Shown here: one piece after another, positions 38,453-46,926 of the stretch | Position numbering within the stretch: position 1 is the first letter of the stretch | How the letters are laid out: each line of letters begins with the position of its first letter | Assembly: GCF_028728065.1 (NCBI RefSeq) | Contig: NZ_CP117812.1 | Span: 310,001 to 374,000 of the forward strand | Origin: Lentisphaera profundi | Lineage (GTDB): Bacteria > Verrucomicrobiota > Lentisphaeria > Lentisphaerales > Lentisphaeraceae | Direction: 5' to 3' | Length of the DNA: 64,000 nt | Translations under genes and position numbers: made by a program | Notes under the pieces: model-generated | Database searches by the model: none | Told to the model about the DNA's origin: nothing | The model's input: only the letters and a program-made list of their open reading frames with translations

Positions 38453-38659
38453 TGTGTATCTCCGTTGGGGTTATATTTTAAATTGTGCTTACTTACTTAT
38501 TCGGATAATATTCACTCATTCTTGCACGCATTGATGAAAAATATGAGAAAATATGTGGTTTTTATTAAAAATGAGCAGGGAATTAATATGCTATTATGCT
38601 TTTACTTGGATAGGTTTTAGTAAGTCTTTTTGAAAGTAGAGATAAAATTAAGGTTCAGA

Positions 38660-40417
38660 ATGAGTGAAGAAATAGTCAATAATAGCGATGTATTATCAAT
38701 AGAAGAAATCTCGAGGCGACACTTTTTAAAAGTAGGGGTGGCTGGATTGAGTGTGCTGTCGTCACATAGCGGCTACGCAAAAGAGAATGAGAGCAGTGGT
38801 TTTTTGCCTTTCAATGAATTGGCAATCCAGCAGGCATCGGGTTTAAGATTAGCAGAAGGCTTTAAATATAAAACTTTATGTGCTTTTGGAGATCCTTTGC
38901 ACGCAGGGATGAAAGCTTATGATCCTAAGAGCTTGAGTGGCGAAGAGCAAAAAAAACGTTTTGGTGCGGCTTGTGATTTTATTCATGTATTTGAGCAAAG
39001 TGATGACAAGGCGATACTTTGTTTTAATAATGAGTTCCCTGAACTTGGTGGTCATCCAGATAGAGCTGAGAGAGAGCAAGCCGCTTATCATAGTGTGGGC
39101 GTTAGCATAGCCGCAATCAAGCGTGATGGCAGGGATGAGTGGAAAATCGATTTCCTGTCTCAGCTTAATCGTCGCGTGACTCCGTCTAGTAAAGCTCTTA
39201 TAACAGGGCCGGCAGCAGGTCATGAGAGAATGAAATCAAAAGCTAGTCCAGATGGGATTCGTACAGCAGGAACATTGGGCAATTGTGCCGGAGGTTATAC
39301 TCCTTGGGGAACATATCTAACTGCAGAAGAAAATGTACAGCAATATTTTTCAGGTGAGATTAAAGGACATAAAGAAGAAGAGAATTTTAAACGCTTTGGT
39401 ATGAACGATAATGGCAACTTTTTTGCTAGGCTTGATCCTCGCTTTGATCTCAATAGCGGTTATCAGTCGGCCTTGCACTTTGGTATGGTGGTTGAAATAG
39501 ATCCCCTAGAGCCAAATGAGCCGATCAAAAAACATTCTATGTTGGGTCGCTGTCGGCATGAATGCGCGAAAGTACGCGTCAATAAAGAGGGCTACATAGA
39601 AGTCTACACAAGTGATGATCAAGGCTTTGAATATATTTATAAATTTATTTCTGCAGAGAAATATAAAGAGGGAGATCGTCAGCATAATAAAACTTTATTA
39701 GAAGCGGGTGTTTTACATGTAGCAAAATTTGCGGAAGATGGAAAAATGGCTTGGTTACCAATGATTTTTGGAGAAGGAAAATTGACCAAAGAGCATGGCT
39801 TCAATTCTCAAGCTGACGTGCAAATTGATTCTCGTAAAGCAGCGGATTTACTTGGGGCAACTCCTATGGATCGTCCCGAAGATATTGATATAGATCCCAA
39901 GACAGGAAATATCTTTTTCTTCATGACCGGAAACAGAGCTCGTTCACGTGATAAATTAAATTCAGCCAACCCCATCGAGATGGGTGCGGGGCATATTATT
40001 GAACTTAATGATCAAGGAACTCAGGGAAAGTGGAACTTCTTTGTTATTTGTGGGAAGTTTTCTGGCGACCCAGTGAACTCTACTTTTACTCAAGAAACAA
40101 GTCTTTCAGGGTGTTTTGTCTATCCGGACAATGGGGCCTTTGATCGTGACGGAGAATTATGGGTATGTTCAGATGGTTATAGCTTCCCGGGTTTTACTGA
40201 TGGACTTTGGCATTGTGAGAAAAAGGATGATCGGGTCATCTCCCGTCGTTTTGCTACACCACCGAAAGCAGCAGAGTTTACGGGGCCTTATTTTTTGAAA
40301 AATAGCAAAGAGTTATTTTTATCTGTTCAGCATCCTGCGACAAACCCTTCTGGGAGCTTTCCTGATTTCAATCACCTTAAGGCAAGAAGTGCGGTTGTGG
40401 TGATTAGTCGAGATTAA
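38660..40417 (+). CDS. PhoX-like (DUF839) Tat-exported alkaline phosphatase family protein
   Basis: The 585-residue product carries a twin-arginine signal (SRRHFLKVGVAGLSVLSS). The mature beta-propeller contains GNCAGGYTPWGTYLTAEEN, which includes the Cys and Glu that bind iron in PhoX, and MLGRCRHECAKVRVN and DRPEDIDIDPKTGNIFFFMT further on. PhoX enzymes are calcium- and iron-dependent phosphomonoesterases used for phosphate scavenging in the sea. AAGG lies seven bases before the ATG at 38660; a TTG ten codons earlier is rejected. No Pho box was recognised. Confidence 0.88.
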   Translation: MSEEIVNNSDVLSIEEISRRHFLKVGVAGLSVLSSHSGYAKENESSGFLPFNELAIQQASGLRLAEGFKYKTLCAFGDPLHAGMKAYDPKSLSGEEQKKRFGAACDFIHVFEQSDDKAILCFNNEFPELGGHPDRAEREQAAYHSVGVSIAAIKRDGRDEWKIDFLSQLNRRVTPSSKALITGPAAGHERMKSKASPDGIRTAGTLGNCAGGYTPWGTYLTAEENVQQYFSGEIKGHKEEENFKRFGMNDNGNFFARLDPRFDLNSGYQSALHFGMVVEIDPLEPNEPIKKHSMLGRCRHECAKVRVNKEGYIEVYTSDDQGFEYIYKFISAEKYKEGDRQHNKTLLEAGVLHVAKFAEDGKMAWLPMIFGEGKLTKEHGFNSQADVQIDSRKAADLLGATPMDRPEDIDIDPKTGNIFFFMTGNRARSRDKLNSANPIEMGAGHIIELNDQGTQGKWNFFVICGKFSGDPVNSTFTQETSLSGCFVYPDNGAFDRDGELWVCSDGYSFPGFTDGLWHCEKKDDRVISRRFATPPKAAEFTGPYFLKNSKELFLSVQHPATNPSGSFPDFNHLKARSAVVVISRD

Positions 40418-40449: not shown

Positions 40450-43400
40450 CTATTCATTTTCTTCCAGTGACTCGATATTTATACCCTGCCAGCCACCGCC
40501 GAGTGCTTGATACAGTTGTATCAGCGATTTGTTCGACTCTAAGCGACTCAAGGCCAACTGTTCTTCCGCCACCTGAGCATTGAGCAATGCTGAAATAACT
40601 GATTTGTAATCACGTAATCCTTTAAGGTACATGCCGCGTGCTAATTTAACTGAGCTCTCAGCATAGCGAACGGCAGCTTGGATTTCGCTTTGGCGCTCGA
40701 GTTCTTTGGTGAAGCCTAGTAAACTTGATTCTACTTCTTCCACACTCTGTAAAACCACTTTTTTATACTGCAAGACTTGTTCACGCAGAGTTGATTCTTG
40801 GATCTTGATTTCGTCTTTGATACGCATGGCATTGAGAATACGCCATTCAAAGTTGGGACCAAAACTCCAGTGCTTACTATCACTGCTGGAAACATTAGAA
40901 ATATGTGAAGCATTGAGGCCAATACTTCCATTGAGATAAAACTTCGGATAGTATTCCGCCTTGGCAATTTTCAGTCGTGAAGCCTCGGCTTCCACTAAAT
41001 ACTCTTGTTTCTTGATATCGGGTCGACGGCGTAATAAATCTACGGGCACACCACGAGTCATCGATTTGTTTGGTGTTATTATTGTGATTTCACCTTCAAG
41101 TTCTTTATTGAGTGTACCTGGAAAGGCTCCAAGTAAAACACATATTTGATTAGCGAATTGCTGACGTTGTTTCTCGAGTTGGCGTAAATGAGCTTGACTA
41201 CGGTGAATGAGTTCTAGGGCGTCATTCACATCGAGTTGTGTCGATGAACCTGCTTTGAAACGCGCTTTGATGAAGCGTAAGTTTTCTTGTTGCAAGTTGA
41301 GGTTTCGATGGCTGATTGATTCCAGTTTCTGCTGAATGCGGTAGGCAAAATAAAGCTGCGCTAATTCTGAACTCATGAGTACGTGTAAGTGATAAAGGTC
41401 CTCGCGACTCGCTTCATACTCACGTTCCGCCACACGAGTATTTTCGCGAACGCGTCCAAAGAAGTCCATCTCCCAACTCGCCTGTGCAAAGATATTATAA
41501 TCAGTCTCTGCTTCGGAACCACGGAAACTATTCTTAAGATTTTCACTATATTGACTTCGATTAGCGCCCCCTCCAATATTAGTGGTGGGATACTTATTTC
41601 GACTCTCGCGACTTAAATTGGCTCGTGATCGTTGAAGGCGTTCAAGGCCCATTGCTAGGTCCAAGTTTTGCAAACGTGCGCGTTCAATCAATGAGACCAA
41701 GAGTGGATCTTCAAACTGAGTCCACCAAGTTTGTAAATCACCCTCAATAACATCGGTGGTATTTACCCACTGCTTAGGCGGAACAATTTCTTTAGACAAT
41801 TTCACTGTTTCTTGGCTCTCACAGGAAACAATCAATAAGCTGAACAATACGAGACTTACGAGGGCTATTTTTTTTGCGTGAAATTTTTCCGAAAGACTTA
41901 AGGATAAAGAGAGTAGAACCGGAACCAAAAAGAGTGTGAATATCGTTGAACAAATCATTCCTCCGACCACGACAGCGCCAAGGCCACGGTACAGCTCAGA
42001 ACCCGAACCGGGCATAAGCACAAGTGGTAACATACCACCAACGGAAGTCAGCATACTCATAAAGATGGGGCGTACTCGGCTCTGAACAGCAAGGGCAATA
42101 GCTTCACGTGCAGGCATTAATTTATGTTCAGGGTTTTCAATCCCCAAGCCATGCATCAAATGATCTGTTTGTGCAACAATCAGAATAGCGTTATTTACGA
42201 CCACTCCCACCAAGATAACAAAACCTAAGAGTGTTAACATATCTAAGTTTTGAACGGGCATGTAGGGATCAGCCAGACTCACTTTGTGTAAAATTGCTAG
42301 TCCGACAAAGCCACCTAAAGTGGCTAATGGAACCGAGAAAAGGATAATAAAAGGCTTAATCCAACTCTGAAATAAAACACACATGAGTAGGTACACTGCC
42401 GCAATGGCTAAGAAAAAGGAACTTCCTAAAGTCCCCACAAAAGTCCCATCACCTAAGAGTGTCTCACGGATTTTTTTGAGTTTTCCTGCAGTGCCTTCGA
42501 TCTCAATTTCAACCCCGGGAGCAATGGCGCCACCTTGTCGCAACTGTGCAATAATTTCTTCTGTTGAACTGATCGCAGTTTCGAGTGGGATTCCCTGAGG
42601 TGGCGTAAATTCTAGTGTAATGGCGCGACGACGTCCAACACGCTTGATTTGCTCAGGTGCTTCCATCCATCTAAACTCAGCTAGTTCACCCAAGTACGTT
42701 ACTGATCCAGACGGTGTAACTACTGAGAAAGACTTAAGTTCGCTCAGGTAATTTTGATCAGCTGTACCCTGAGCCATCAATTTAAGATCGATCAAATCAT
42801 TGCTCTTGTCATACTCGCCCAAAAATAATCCATCGCTCGCAGCTTGTACAGCTTGAGAGAGCTCCGCACTCGTCATGAGTAGTTCCGCAAGTTTAAGTTG
42901 ATTCGGAATGATCTGCAGTTCTTTGGGATAAACATTAAAGTTGGCAGGGTCTGGTCGCAGTGCCCCGGGTCCATAAGTTTTCATCATAGTTCCAAATAGT
43001 GCACCCGTAGCACTAGAAATTTGCTCGAGATCATTTCCCGTTAAATTGATTTTGATCGCAGATCCAGTGGAGCCACCAATTCTAAATAAGGGGAACTGAA
43101 AGGCAAAGGCATAAGTCCCGGGTATAACATTCGGATTCGTCGCATGCTGAAAAAGAGCCACATTATCTACCGCACGAGTCGCGTCAGAACTAATTCCTCC
43201 GTGGAAAAGGACATCGCCCCTCGCAACTAAGAAATAACGTTTTAACGACGGAGGCTTCACCGTTTCTCCTGTTTGACTATAGGGGACGGGTACAGGTTCT
43301 CGATTGGGTGTATCTTCCCAATAAGGCTGAATTGTTTTTTCAACAGCTTTACCCATCTGTTCCAATTTATCCAAGTTGTAACCAGGAGGTGGAATCATGA

Positions 43401-45105
43401 TACCAAAAGTAATATTGCGATTACCCTTCGGTAAATAATCGAGTGGTGGGGTCAAAACTTTGGTTCCCCATAAGGCAATGCTTACAAAGACAAGGACAAT
43501 AATGATACGAACGCTGGTGCGTCCATTGATCCAATAAATAAATCGCTGCAGCTTGGCTTGCTTAGCATTGCCCTGTTTCTGTATACCATCTTTATGCAGT
43601 AAGAGTGCACCTGCCGAGGGAATCACTGTAATCGAAACCAAATAAGAAAAACTCACGGCGATAATAATTGATAAGCAAATATCTCTGAAGAGCTGCCCAA
43701 CTTGATCTTCGATGAGTAAAATCGGAATGAAAACTGCCACGGTAGTAAGCGTGGAAGCCAACACCGCACCAGCCACTTCTCGTGTGCCTTCATATGCGGC
43801 ACTTTTACGTCCTTTGCCCATTTCTAAATGTCGATAAATATTTTCAAGAACCACGATACAGTTATCTACCACCATGCCGACGGCAAAGGCCATGCCTGCT
43901 AAACTAACCACATTTATGGAGCGCCCCATCAAAACCATAATCACAACGGTTCCCACCATAGAAACGGGGATGGATAAAGCAATGATACCAACTGAACGAA
44001 TCGAACGTAAGAAAATCAATAAAATGATAACGGCAAGCGCACCGCCCATGAAGATGTTGCTTTGGACGAGTTTAAGGGCTTGGTTGACATAGTTGGTGGA
44101 TTGATAAGATACCAAAAGTTGTAGTGGTTTTTTTAAACCTAAACGTTTTGATTCAGCAGCGAGTACGCCACCTTCGCTATTGAGTTTATCGATGCGTTGC
44201 TGTAAGTCGTCCATTATATCAAGCACATTGCTTCCCAATTCACGTTGGAAATTTAAAGCGAGGGCACGGCGCCCATTGGAGCGTACAAAAGCAGTCGCTT
44301 CTTTATAAGTTTCTTCTACAGTAGCCACATCGGAAACGCGGATTACACCCGTCGCGTCATTGCGAATCACCACGGATTCAATATCTTGGGGTGAAGAAAA
44401 ACGGCCCACGGTACGAATGCGGATATCGCTTTTACCTTGAATGAGTGAACCACCCGAGGTATTTTGATTATTGCTTTGTAAGGCCGCGACTAACTCGCTA
44501 ATCGGCATTTTAAATTGCGCTAAACGCAAGGGATCAAAATGAATTTGAACTTCCTGTTCGGTTCCACCGAGGACATTGACTTCGGAAATTCCCGATACGC
44601 GTTCGAGTAAGGGCTTAACACGATCATCCGCAAAATCTTGTAAACGACGTACATCAAAATCATCGTCCTCGGTAGCTAAAACATACCAAGCGATATAATC
44701 CTTACTATCTGGGTCACTAGCTTCAATTACGGGTTCATCAACATTGCTAGGATAGGAAGGCACTTCTCTAAGTTTATCGCTCACTTCACGCAGAGCCACA
44801 TCTTTATCGATGCCTTGATTAAATTCCAGACGTATCACTCCTTGCCCACGTGAGCTGACGCTACTGAGGCTGCGAAGGTTAGCTAAACCTTGGAGTTTTT
44901 CTTCTTGTGCATCCACAACTTCCGATTCGATTTCTTGTGGGGAAGCATTCTCCCAATGAGTCGTAACCGCAATTACTGTATCGTCGACCTCTGGTGTCAT
45001 CTGCACTGGCACGATTTGAAAGGCGACGATTCCCGCTAAAAAACAGAAAAGTATGGCGACGGCAACACTGATGGGTTGCTTGGTCGATAGTTTAATAAGG
45101 TTCAT
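40450..45105 (-). CDS. RND efflux pump fused to a NodT-family outer-membrane channel lipoprotein
   Basis: Residues 1-1079 form a complete RND permease: a first membrane helix near 12-32, porter and docking regions, and two six-helix sets with GMVVDNCIVVLENIYRH (proton-relay Asp) and GVVVNNAILIVAQ. At residue 1080 the same frame continues into a signal-like stretch (IALVSLVLFSLLIVSC) with lipobox Cys1095. About 456 residues of TolC/OprM-type channel follow (DLQTWWTQFEDPLLVSLIER, FLKARF-type FIKARFKAGSSTQLDV, VPVDLLRRRPDIKKQEY). The junction lies on an A8 run (41868-41875). No start codon suited to a separate channel gene was found. The gene begins directly at the stop of the adaptor gene, giving a three-part efflux system from two reading frames. 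Confidence 0.9.
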   Translation of the reverse strand: MNLIKLSTKQPISVAVAILFCFLAGIVAFQIVPVQMTPEVDDTVIAVTTHWENASPQEIESEVVDAQEEKLQGLANLRSLSSVSSRGQGVIRLEFNQGIDKDVALREVSDKLREVPSYPSNVDEPVIEASDPDSKDYIAWYVLATEDDDFDVRRLQDFADDRVKPLLERVSGISEVNVLGGTEQEVQIHFDPLRLAQFKMPISELVAALQSNNQNTSGGSLIQGKSDIRIRTVGRFSSPQDIESVVIRNDATGVIRVSDVATVEETYKEATAFVRSNGRRALALNFQRELGSNVLDIMDDLQQRIDKLNSEGGVLAAESKRLGLKKPLQLLVSYQSTNYVNQALKLVQSNIFMGGALAVIILLIFLRSIRSVGIIALSIPVSMVGTVVIMVLMGRSINVVSLAGMAFAVGMVVDNCIVVLENIYRHLEMGKGRKSAAYEGTREVAGAVLASTLTTVAVFIPILLIEDQVGQLFRDICLSIIIAVSFSYLVSITVIPSAGALLLHKDGIQKQGNAKQAKLQRFIYWINGRTSVRIIIVLVFVSIALWGTKVLTPPLDYLPKGNRNITFGIMIPPPGYNLDKLEQMGKAVEKTIQPYWEDTPNREPVPVPYSQTGETVKPPSLKRYFLVARGDVLFHGGISSDATRAVDNVALFQHATNPNVIPGTYAFAFQFPLFRIGGSTGSAIKINLTGNDLEQISSATGALFGTMMKTYGPGALRPDPANFNVYPKELQIIPNQLKLAELLMTSAELSQAVQAASDGLFLGEYDKSNDLIDLKLMAQGTADQNYLSELKSFSVVTPSGSVTYLGELAEFRWMEAPEQIKRVGRRRAITLEFTPPQGIPLETAISSTEEIIAQLRQGGAIAPGVEIEIEGTAGKLKKIRETLLGDGTFVGTLGSSFFLAIAAVYLLMCVLFQSWIKPFIILFSVPLATLGGFVGLAILHKVSLADPYMPVQNLDMLTLLGFVILVGVVVNNAILIVAQTDHLMHGLGIENPEHKLMPAREAIALAVQSRVRPIFMSMLTSVGGMLPLVLMPGSGSELYRGLGAVVVGGMICSTIFTLFLVPVLLSLSLSLSEKFHAKKIALVSLVLFSLLIVSCESQETVKLSKEIVPPKQWVNTTDVIEGDLQTWWTQFEDPLLVSLIERARLQNLDLAMGLERLQRSRANLSRESRNKYPTTNIGGGANRSQYSENLKNSFRGSEAETDYNIFAQASWEMDFFGRVRENTRVAEREYEASREDLYHLHVLMSSELAQLYFAYRIQQKLESISHRNLNLQQENLRFIKARFKAGSSTQLDVNDALELIHRSQAHLRQLEKQRQQFANQICVLLGAFPGTLNKELEGEITIITPNKSMTRGVPVDLLRRRPDIKKQEYLVEAEASRLKIAKAEYYPKFYLNGSIGLNASHISNVSSSDSKHWSFGPNFEWRILNAMRIKDEIKIQESTLREQVLQYKKVVLQSVEEVESSLLGFTKELERQSEIQAAVRYAESSVKLARGMYLKGLRDYKSVISALLNAQVAEEQLALSRLESNKSLIQLYQALGGGWQGINIESLEENE

Positions 45106-46200
45106 TTAGGGCTCCTTAATCACCTGCACAGGTGTCATCGGAAAGAGTCGTTCATTGCCTTCGATAATAACGGAACTCCCCACGGCTAAATCTGGATTTG
45201 ATATAGCACTTTCTTGACCCAAACGAAAGAGTAATTTTACGGGTATCGGTACGGCTAGGTGACCTTTTTTTCCGGGAGTGGCTAAATATATATAATAGCC
45301 GGCACCATTTCGCGAGATAGCATCGCTAGGCACCAATTTATGTTTGGCTTTACTCGTTTTGGGTAAGATAGCCTCGACTGACATGCCGTGAATTAGAGCC
45401 TCATCCTTCGCGATATTAATAATGACCTGGTAATTACGTGAACGCTGATCAACTTGAGGAATAAAGCGGAGTTTTTCAATTTTCAATTTTTTGCCACTCG
45501 CACTCAAATTTATATTATCTATTTTTAAATTCGTAAATGGCAGAGATTCTGGGACTGGCAACCAGGCTTCTAGTTGATCAGTACTACGTAGTTTCAATAA
45601 AGAGCTACCGACACCCAACCAACTGCCTTGCTCAACAAAACGTTCGACGATTACTCCTGTGAAAGGGGCTTTGATTTCCATGTCCCTCAAGGAGATTTGT
45701 AAAGTTTCTAAGCTCGCTGCTAGAGTCTTTGTACGTGCCTTTTCAACAGCTAGGTCACCTTCAGTAGTCACCACTAGAAGTCGTGCTTTACGTTTTTCCT
45801 GCTTGCTGACCGACCCAGCATAATCCACTTCTGCTTCGATCAATGAATCGTATTCTTCGCGTAAAATAAGGAGTTCGTTGCCATAGCGCTTGAGTATTGC
45901 GCTATTCTCGGCTAACTCAGCCTGTTTAGAAAGTATTGACTGGCGAATACGACGATCATCCAAGCGTGCCAAAAGTTGCCCTTTTTCCACTCGTTCACCT
46001 TCTCGTACCAAGAGTTCATCTAAACGTCCTTCTTCGAGTGAGGAAATATCTGAACTTAGTGCAGCTCGGAGAGAGCCCGTGACTCGTTGTTGCTCAAAAA
46101 CTGATCTTTCTTGCACTGTGGCGACACGTACGGGTGAAGCTTGTTGAGCCGATAATGAACTCATACTCAAAATAGCGCCGATTATAAAATATTTTCTCAT
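45106..46200 (-). CDS. Periplasmic adaptor (membrane fusion) protein of the RND pump
   Basis: The 364-residue AcrA/HlyD-type protein bridges pump and outer-membrane channel. It has a signal peptide (IIGAILSMSSLSAQ), an N-terminal barrel and lipoyl half-motif SDISSLEEGRLDELLVREGE, a coiled-coil hairpin (about 95-165), the second lipoyl half MEIKAPFTGVIVERFVEQGS, and a beta-barrel domain. No lipidation Cys is seen, so it is probably soluble or loosely attached. Its stop codon touches the pump start codon (TAAATG). Confidence 0.93.
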   Translation of the reverse strand: MRKYFIIGAILSMSSLSAQQASPVRVATVQERSVFEQQRVTGSLRAALSSDISSLEEGRLDELLVREGERVEKGQLLARLDDRRIRQSILSKQAELAENSAILKRYGNELLILREEYDSLIEAEVDYAGSVSKQEKRKARLLVVTTEGDLAVEKARTKTLAASLETLQISLRDMEIKAPFTGVIVERFVEQGSWLGVGSSLLKLRSTDQLEAWLPVPESLPFTNLKIDNINLSASGKKLKIEKLRFIPQVDQRSRNYQVIINIAKDEALIHGMSVEAILPKTSKAKHKLVPSDAISRNGAGYYIYLATPGKKGHLAVPIPVKLLFRLGQESAISNPDLAVGSSVIIEGNERLFPMTPVQVIKEP

Positions 46201-46203
46201 CTT

Positions 46204-46926
46204 CTAACCTTTAATTAAATCTTGTGTTTTATCTTTTAAGATATTGCTTACGTCCTTTAGTTCGCCGGGAAAAAAGTCGCGGCGACAGCCAAATCCTTTG
46301 AGTAAGGCACTCAGGCATTGTAGGTAAATTTCTTCCTCGTTAATATCTTGATAAATTGTTTTGTTTTTCATACAAAAACTATTGAAGACTTGATGCAGTC
46401 CTATGCAAACGCCCCACAAGCTGAGGTTCAATGTTTGAGTAAGGGCCTCTTCTTCTACCACTTCATCAAAAAGCTCGCGATTTTTTAAAGTCGCCATGAT
46501 AAAGCCATGCACTAACTCGCCGATGCCTTCGCAAAGTAGGTTTTGTTGCATGGTACGCAATTGTGATGCTCTCTTCCATACCGAGGGAAACAAAGTCAAT
46601 GATTCCACTTCCGCCAATTCACCATGCGCACGATTCATCAGGTAATCACCCATGATCAAGCCAATAATGCGATGTACCGGATCCTCGAATATCTCTCCTG
46701 CACGACGAAAAATTTGTTCGCGCTTTTTTAATAAACAGACGGCAACGCCGACCATGAGGTCTTCCTTACTCACAAAATGTGTGTAAAGTGTCCCTACGGA
46801 GATATTGGCTTCTTTGGCAACATCGGACATGCGTAGATTAAAAAATCCTTCACTCGATATTTTTTGCTTAGCGACTTCGAGGATGAGTTCTTCTCTTGCG
46901 AGTATTTTTTCTTGTTTATTGTACAT
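46204..46926 (-). CDS. TetR-family repressor of the efflux operon
   Basis: The 240-residue protein has an N-terminal TetR helix-turn-helix: LILEVAKQKISSEGFFNLRM, then SDVAKEANISVGTLYTHFVS with the canonical V-G-T-L-Y-x-H-F. A helical ligand-binding domain follows. It is first in the operon, three bases before the adaptor gene, so it most likely autoregulates and controls the pump in response to a toxic ligand. Candidate operators lie just upstream at 46951-46961 and 47061-47075. Confidence 0.92.
   Translation of the reverse strand: MYNKQEKILAREELILEVAKQKISSEGFFNLRMSDVAKEANISVGTLYTHFVSKEDLMVGVAVCLLKKREQIFRRAGEIFEDPVHRIIGLIMGDYLMNRAHGELAEVESLTLFPSVWKRASQLRTMQQNLLCEGIGELVHGFIMATLKNRELFDEVVEEEALTQTLNLSLWGVCIGLHQVFNSFCMKNKTIYQDINEEEIYLQCLSALLKGFGCRRDFFPGELKDVSNILKDKTQDLIKG

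Follow-up and report, generated by a model that had tools for sequence, protein, structure and literature searches.

The locus lies in a 64,000-nt window of the Lentisphaera profundi genome (NZ_CP117812.1, 310,001 to 374,000; GCF_028728065.1), to which the coordinates below refer. The minus strand from 40450 to 45105 is one uninterrupted frame of 1551 codons that starts with ATG, and the plus strand over the same interval contains many stops. The frame joins an RND permease to an outer-membrane channel, and its parts and neighbours are as follows.

40450..45105, minus strand: fused gene, RND permease plus NodT-type outer-membrane channel, 1551 aa (open frame, Pfam/NCBIfam domains, full-length orthologues)
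41908..45105, minus strand: RND permease part, residues 1-1066, with 12 hydrophobic segments (ACR_tran, hydropathy, solved AcrB/MdtB/MexB relatives)
41824..41907, minus strand: basic cytoplasmic linker (SEKFHAKK) and thirteenth hydrophobic segment ending IVS, residues 1067-1094, the predicted internal signal peptide (junction comparison, hydropathy)
41821..41823, minus strand: Cys1095 codon, predicted lipidation and LspA cleavage site (invariance in 10 fused proteins; [GAS]C in 18/18 junctions)
40453..41820, minus strand: NodT/OprM-type outer-membrane channel part, residues 1096-1551 (outer_NodT score, OprN/CusC/OprM-like fold)
41868..41875, minus strand: run of eight A at the junction, in the window copy only (sequence)
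45106..46200, minus strand: periplasmic adaptor (RND_mfp), 364 aa, directly upstream of the fused gene (TIGR01730, 159.3 bits, cut-off 94.9)
46204..46926, minus strand: TetR-type regulator, whose gene opens the presumed operon (TetR_N)

The last base of the adaptor gene abuts the ATG of the fused gene, and the adaptor of a tripartite RND pump is thus encoded in the same operon. On the other side, a plus-strand gene at 38630-40417 converges on the fused gene, and the two 3' ends lie 32 bases apart; its product is an alkaline phosphatase of the PhoX type, whose signal (RRHFLK) is Tat-like.

The first two thirds of the chain have the hallmarks of an RND permease, with a full-length Pfam ACR_tran match (residues 4-1065, 626.8 bits) and 12 membrane segments, seen as 12 hydropathy peaks before the junction; a thirteenth peak follows at 1077-1095. 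The permease scores below the cut-offs of the named NCBIfam subfamilies RND_permease_1/2, AcrB and CusA (best RND_permease_2, 535 bits versus 1250; CusA, 276 versus 701), and because the multidrug and heavy-metal cut-offs are both missed by far, we read it as a divergent member of the HAE-like group. Among solved structures, MdtB and other AcrB/MexB-type multidrug pumps come closest to it. Asn replaces both the second Asp of AcrB's TM4 pair (VDN415) and the TM10 Lys (VNN971), sites that we take to be functional in AcrB, and both variants are conserved in the fused clade.

The remainder of the chain is a NodT-type channel. Pfam finds two OEP stretches after the permease (best 1358-1536), and the NCBIfam model outer_NodT (TIGR01845) matches residues 1119-1538 with 279.5 bits, above its cut-off of 210.05. 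In a structural model of residues 1068-1551, a helix (1071-1093) is followed by an unstructured segment to about residue 1125 (pLDDT <50 at 1090-1125) and then by a TolC-like alpha/beta-barrel resembling OprN, CusC, VceC and OprM (Foldseek E down to 1.8e-27). The two halves of the chain therefore match the folds of AcrB/MdtB/MexB and of OprM/OprN/CusC, although in those systems the two are separate proteins. Between the halves, the hydrophobic stretch 1077-1094 runs into a lipobox-like IVS-C1095. The original prediction, made by reading the letters, had described precisely such an uninterrupted 1551-codon frame, with a NodT-type channel behind a signal-like stretch and a lipobox at Cys1095, and the search of the whole chain (ACR_tran, OEP and outer_NodT) agrees; it was also right that the permease is complete, but placed its end at 1079 rather than near 1066.

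The fusion is not confined to this genome. The same full-length fusion, in one open frame, is present in four other Lentisphaeria genomes (54-60% identity), the related Lentisphaerota in which the original prediction had proposed to look for it. Identity is 47-50% for the copies in Scalindua/Brocadiaceae and in another planctomycete. The planctomycete fusions were found by an alignment-based scan of genome contigs; a single-sequence scan, with patterns that were too strict, gave nothing. In the copy from Candidatus Scalindua RBC_AMX3 (L038), the permease is split into many frames, probably owing to a low-quality assembly, and the junction is intact. In two genomes of the same genus the gene is absent at E 1e-100, and a search of the phylum (388 genomes) at 1e-180 gave only seven matches, of which five have the fusion; thus, the distribution is patchy. 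Exchange between lineages is likely.

Comparison of the junctions singles out the cysteine. C1095 is the sole invariant residue between positions 1065 and 1112 in an alignment of ten fused proteins, and the residue before it is Ser or Gly in all ten. Similarly, a hydrophobic stretch ending in [GAS]C is found at 18/18 fused junctions, among them those of two more fusions of independent origin. The basic n-region, hydrophobic h-region and lipobox of a bacterial lipoprotein are all present, although some relatives depart from the lipobox pattern at position -3, where they have A, G, T or F. The unusual point of this candidate lipoprotein is the position of the signal, which lies at residues 1067-1094 of 1551 and not at the N-terminus of the chain. 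In the twelve fusions of the window-gene clade and in L091, 32-36 residues separate the Cys from a conserved WW in the channel core. This spacing is close to that in the stand-alone NodT-type channels encoded elsewhere in the L. profundi genome, whose lipoboxes at the start are LVAC, LSSC and MVSC. In E. coli, Asp after the lipoprotein Cys is an inner-membrane retention signal, a rule that may not hold here; the residue after the junction Cys is never Asp. Nine OEP proteins are encoded in the L. profundi genome, and the window gene is the only fused one. The genome also contains Lgt and LspA genes; despite these and several lipoprotein-type channels, Pfam LolA has no match in it, which counts against the outer-membrane delivery proposed below, although its LolA family may be divergent.

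Fusions of heavy-metal pumps with channels in Bacteroidetes, which the original prediction had mentioned, do exist. They are CusA/CzcA-TolC proteins of 1446-1492 aa from Haliscomenobacter (WP_013768944.1, confirmed as ACR_tran plus OEP), Runella (WP_013931245.1), Spirosoma, Flavobacterium, Fibrella, Chryseobacterium and Hymenobacter. Like the window gene, they combine a permease and a complete C-terminal OEP/TolC domain in one chain (of ∼1450 aa), with a signal-like stretch inside the junction and an adaptor gene adjacent. They differ in that the permease is of the heavy-metal (HME) type rather than HAE-like, the adaptor gene is downstream and the hydrophobic stretch between the two domains closes with [A/S]-Q and lacks a Cys in 7/7 cases (plasmid loci L102-L108). 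The window gene, with its CusA score far below cut-off and its Cys junction, falls outside this class. In Bacteroidetes, cleavage by signal peptidase I exposes an N-terminal Gln, the Q-rule (PMC5837995), which suggests that the Bacteroidota fusions are processed by signal peptidase I. The L. profundi genome also encodes a CusA-like permease of 1377 aa (G000:C1:1626472-1630602; L111:4473-8603), which contains long extra segments and, at its C-terminus, further hydrophobic stretches; no channel domain is apparent in it.

Related operons whose genes are separate run adaptor-permease-channel. Separate MFP-RND-OMF operons of Planctomycetota and Verrucomicrobiota (L026-L029, L031, L035, L040, L084) share the gene order, the RND subfamily and the channel lipobox with the window locus, but their permease and channel are two genes, the channel starting a few bases from the permease end or overlapping it and carrying its own signal peptide and lipobox. 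In one of these (L084, genome G260), a single in-frame stop lies between permease and channel. The permease tails of the separate-gene relatives compared are charged or short, without a hydrophobic stretch like that of the fusions. Close relatives with two genes, which would have spoken against the original prediction, were absent from the sampled window-gene clade; such relatives occur only in sister lineages.

The permease tree needs four changes between fused and separate states and at least three separate fusions; it is a quick tree without bootstraps, with L091 on a long branch. The first fusion comprises Lentisphaeria, Scalindua and L021 (11 rows, SH-aLRT 99). The second, also with a NodT-type channel, is that of planctomycete G554 (L091); a single event for all NodT-type fusions was rejected on the quick tree (AU test, p 4e-24). 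In the third, found in five planctomycetes (L088, L089, L090, L059, L060), the same permease subfamily is joined to a different, TolC-type (non-NodT) channel, giving permeases of 1700+ residues with an internal lipobox at the junction; OEP was confirmed by Pfam in the three tested. L061 is a separate-gene exception within this group.

Several candidates were set aside. The long frames of L061 and L081 are reading-frame overlaps with the adaptor gene, the fused-looking entries L082 and L084 in the search table are divided by an in-frame stop, and a single-piece plasmid match in Parabacteroides is two abutting genes. A fusion of another kind is found in bacterium RI_285 (L083:7904-12205; G398:C14), in which an RND permease (ACR_tran 5-1055) carries a C-terminal ABC-transporter ATPase (ABC_tran 1162-1305); the next gene has a weak TolC-type match. 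It is puzzling that a proton-driven pump should be combined with an ATPase.

We propose that the window gene encodes a pump-channel polyprotein, that Lgt lipidates it and LspA cuts it at C1095, and that its channel part then reaches the outer membrane; we assign this reading a probability of roughly 0.8. The fused chain would supply two of the three components of a tripartite efflux pump, and the gene immediately upstream the remaining one, the adaptor. Residues 1-1066 would insert in the inner membrane as an AcrB/MdtB-like permease with a cytoplasmic C-terminus, and the basic linker and thirteenth hydrophobic segment would act as an internal lipoprotein signal that exports the channel part across the inner membrane. 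Lgt would lipidate Cys1095 and LspA would cut just before it; the released, lipidated NodT-type channel would then move to the outer membrane and trimerise, where the adaptor would join it to the permease. Fusion would yield equal amounts of permease and channel, which fits a trimer:trimer pump. We infer from sequence comparison that the chain has this topology and is lipidated and cleaved in this way, that the channel is delivered to the outer membrane and that the pump works in efflux. A general precedent for the arrangement is the FbcH cytochrome b/c1 polyprotein of Bradyrhizobium, in which a multi-pass inner-membrane protein and an exported protein are cut apart at an internal signal, although in FbcH the enzyme is signal peptidase I and the exported part a cytochrome, not a lipoprotein channel.

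The original prediction had left two outcomes side by side: either the chain is lipidated and cleaved, or it bridges the envelope as one piece. The comparative evidence strongly favours cleavage, because the lipobox Cys is invariant within a variable linker and, in fusions of independent origin, the type of signal tracks the type of channel. With [GAS]C in the PVC-group fusions versus [A/S]-Q in those of Bacteroidota, the junction seems to retain a cleavage signal suited to the channel that was fused: lipoprotein-type in the former, signal peptidase I-type in the latter. Selection thus appears to have kept the processing site and not merely a thirteenth helix. An uncut, envelope-spanning chain would be compatible with one open frame that has no second start and with a linker after the Cys that is modelled as unstructured and could stretch. 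However, the 32-36 residues from the Cys to the first core helix reach ∼120 Å at most, and in solved tripartite pumps the corresponding part of the channel (the equatorial region) stands an estimated ∼150-200 Å above the inner membrane; because of this shortfall we consider the uncut chain improbable, and it would also leave both the invariant Cys with its preceding [GAS] and the signal peptidase I sites of Bacteroidota unexplained.

Partial processing, with full-length and cut forms coexisting and slippage on the run of eight A also giving a permease without the channel, is at least as improbable. Homopolymer runs of this kind can cause transcriptional slippage, and the run sits exactly at the junction, but no homopolymer of at least six A or T occurs at the other fused junctions; slippage is therefore not conserved and would be a local extra at most. 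It is very improbable that the channel is also made separately from an internal start: some ATG, GTG or TTG lies near the junction in 15/18 fused genes and one gene (L091) has an SD-like sequence, but the start positions are unconserved, the genes other than L091 have no SD-like sequence, and there is no in-frame ATG, GTG or TTG at the junction of the window gene, L021 and L022, which excludes a separately started channel in these three.

The chance that a sequencing or assembly error joined two genes is negligible, since the homopolymer at the junction, although suggestive, is found in the window copy only among the 18 fused genes, and the same open fusion recurs in independent genomes that span several families and two phyla. 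The doubt raised at the outset, that a miscounted A-run at 41868-41875 created the fusion, is thereby removed, and the frame is real, neither a sequencing artefact nor a product of chance.

In the open-access literature we found no paper on natural RND-OMF fusions or on an internal lipoprotein signal of this kind, nor any named case in which LspA cuts behind a protein of 12 helices. Public annotation already contains RND-OMF fusions of Bacteroidota but lists them only as CusA/CzcA permeases. What appears to be new, from the comparisons made here, is an HAE-like permease linked by a retained lipobox to a lipoprotein channel, and the repeated independent origin of such fusions. We think it probable that pump-channel polyproteins are a recurrent, convergent class, in which an exported channel is freed from a multi-pass inner-membrane protein by the signal peptidase that fits the channel, LspA in the PVC group and signal peptidase I in Bacteroidota.

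If cleavage at C1095 is correct, the signal on which Lgt and LspA work is internal and lies behind a complete 12-helix protein, and a single translation event sets the stoichiometry of pump and channel. Common predictors search only the N-terminus, where lipoprotein signals are assumed to lie, so that such channels would be missed or misread as membrane-spanning. The finding also corrects how 'RND permeases' of ∼1450-1750 residues are annotated in Lentisphaerota, Planctomycetota and Bacteroidota. If the convergent-class reading holds, lipoprotein maturation would extend to internal signals behind a 12-helix protein. The repeated independent origin of these fusions, with a cleavage signal kept each time, offers a clean natural experiment on the assembly of envelope-spanning pumps.
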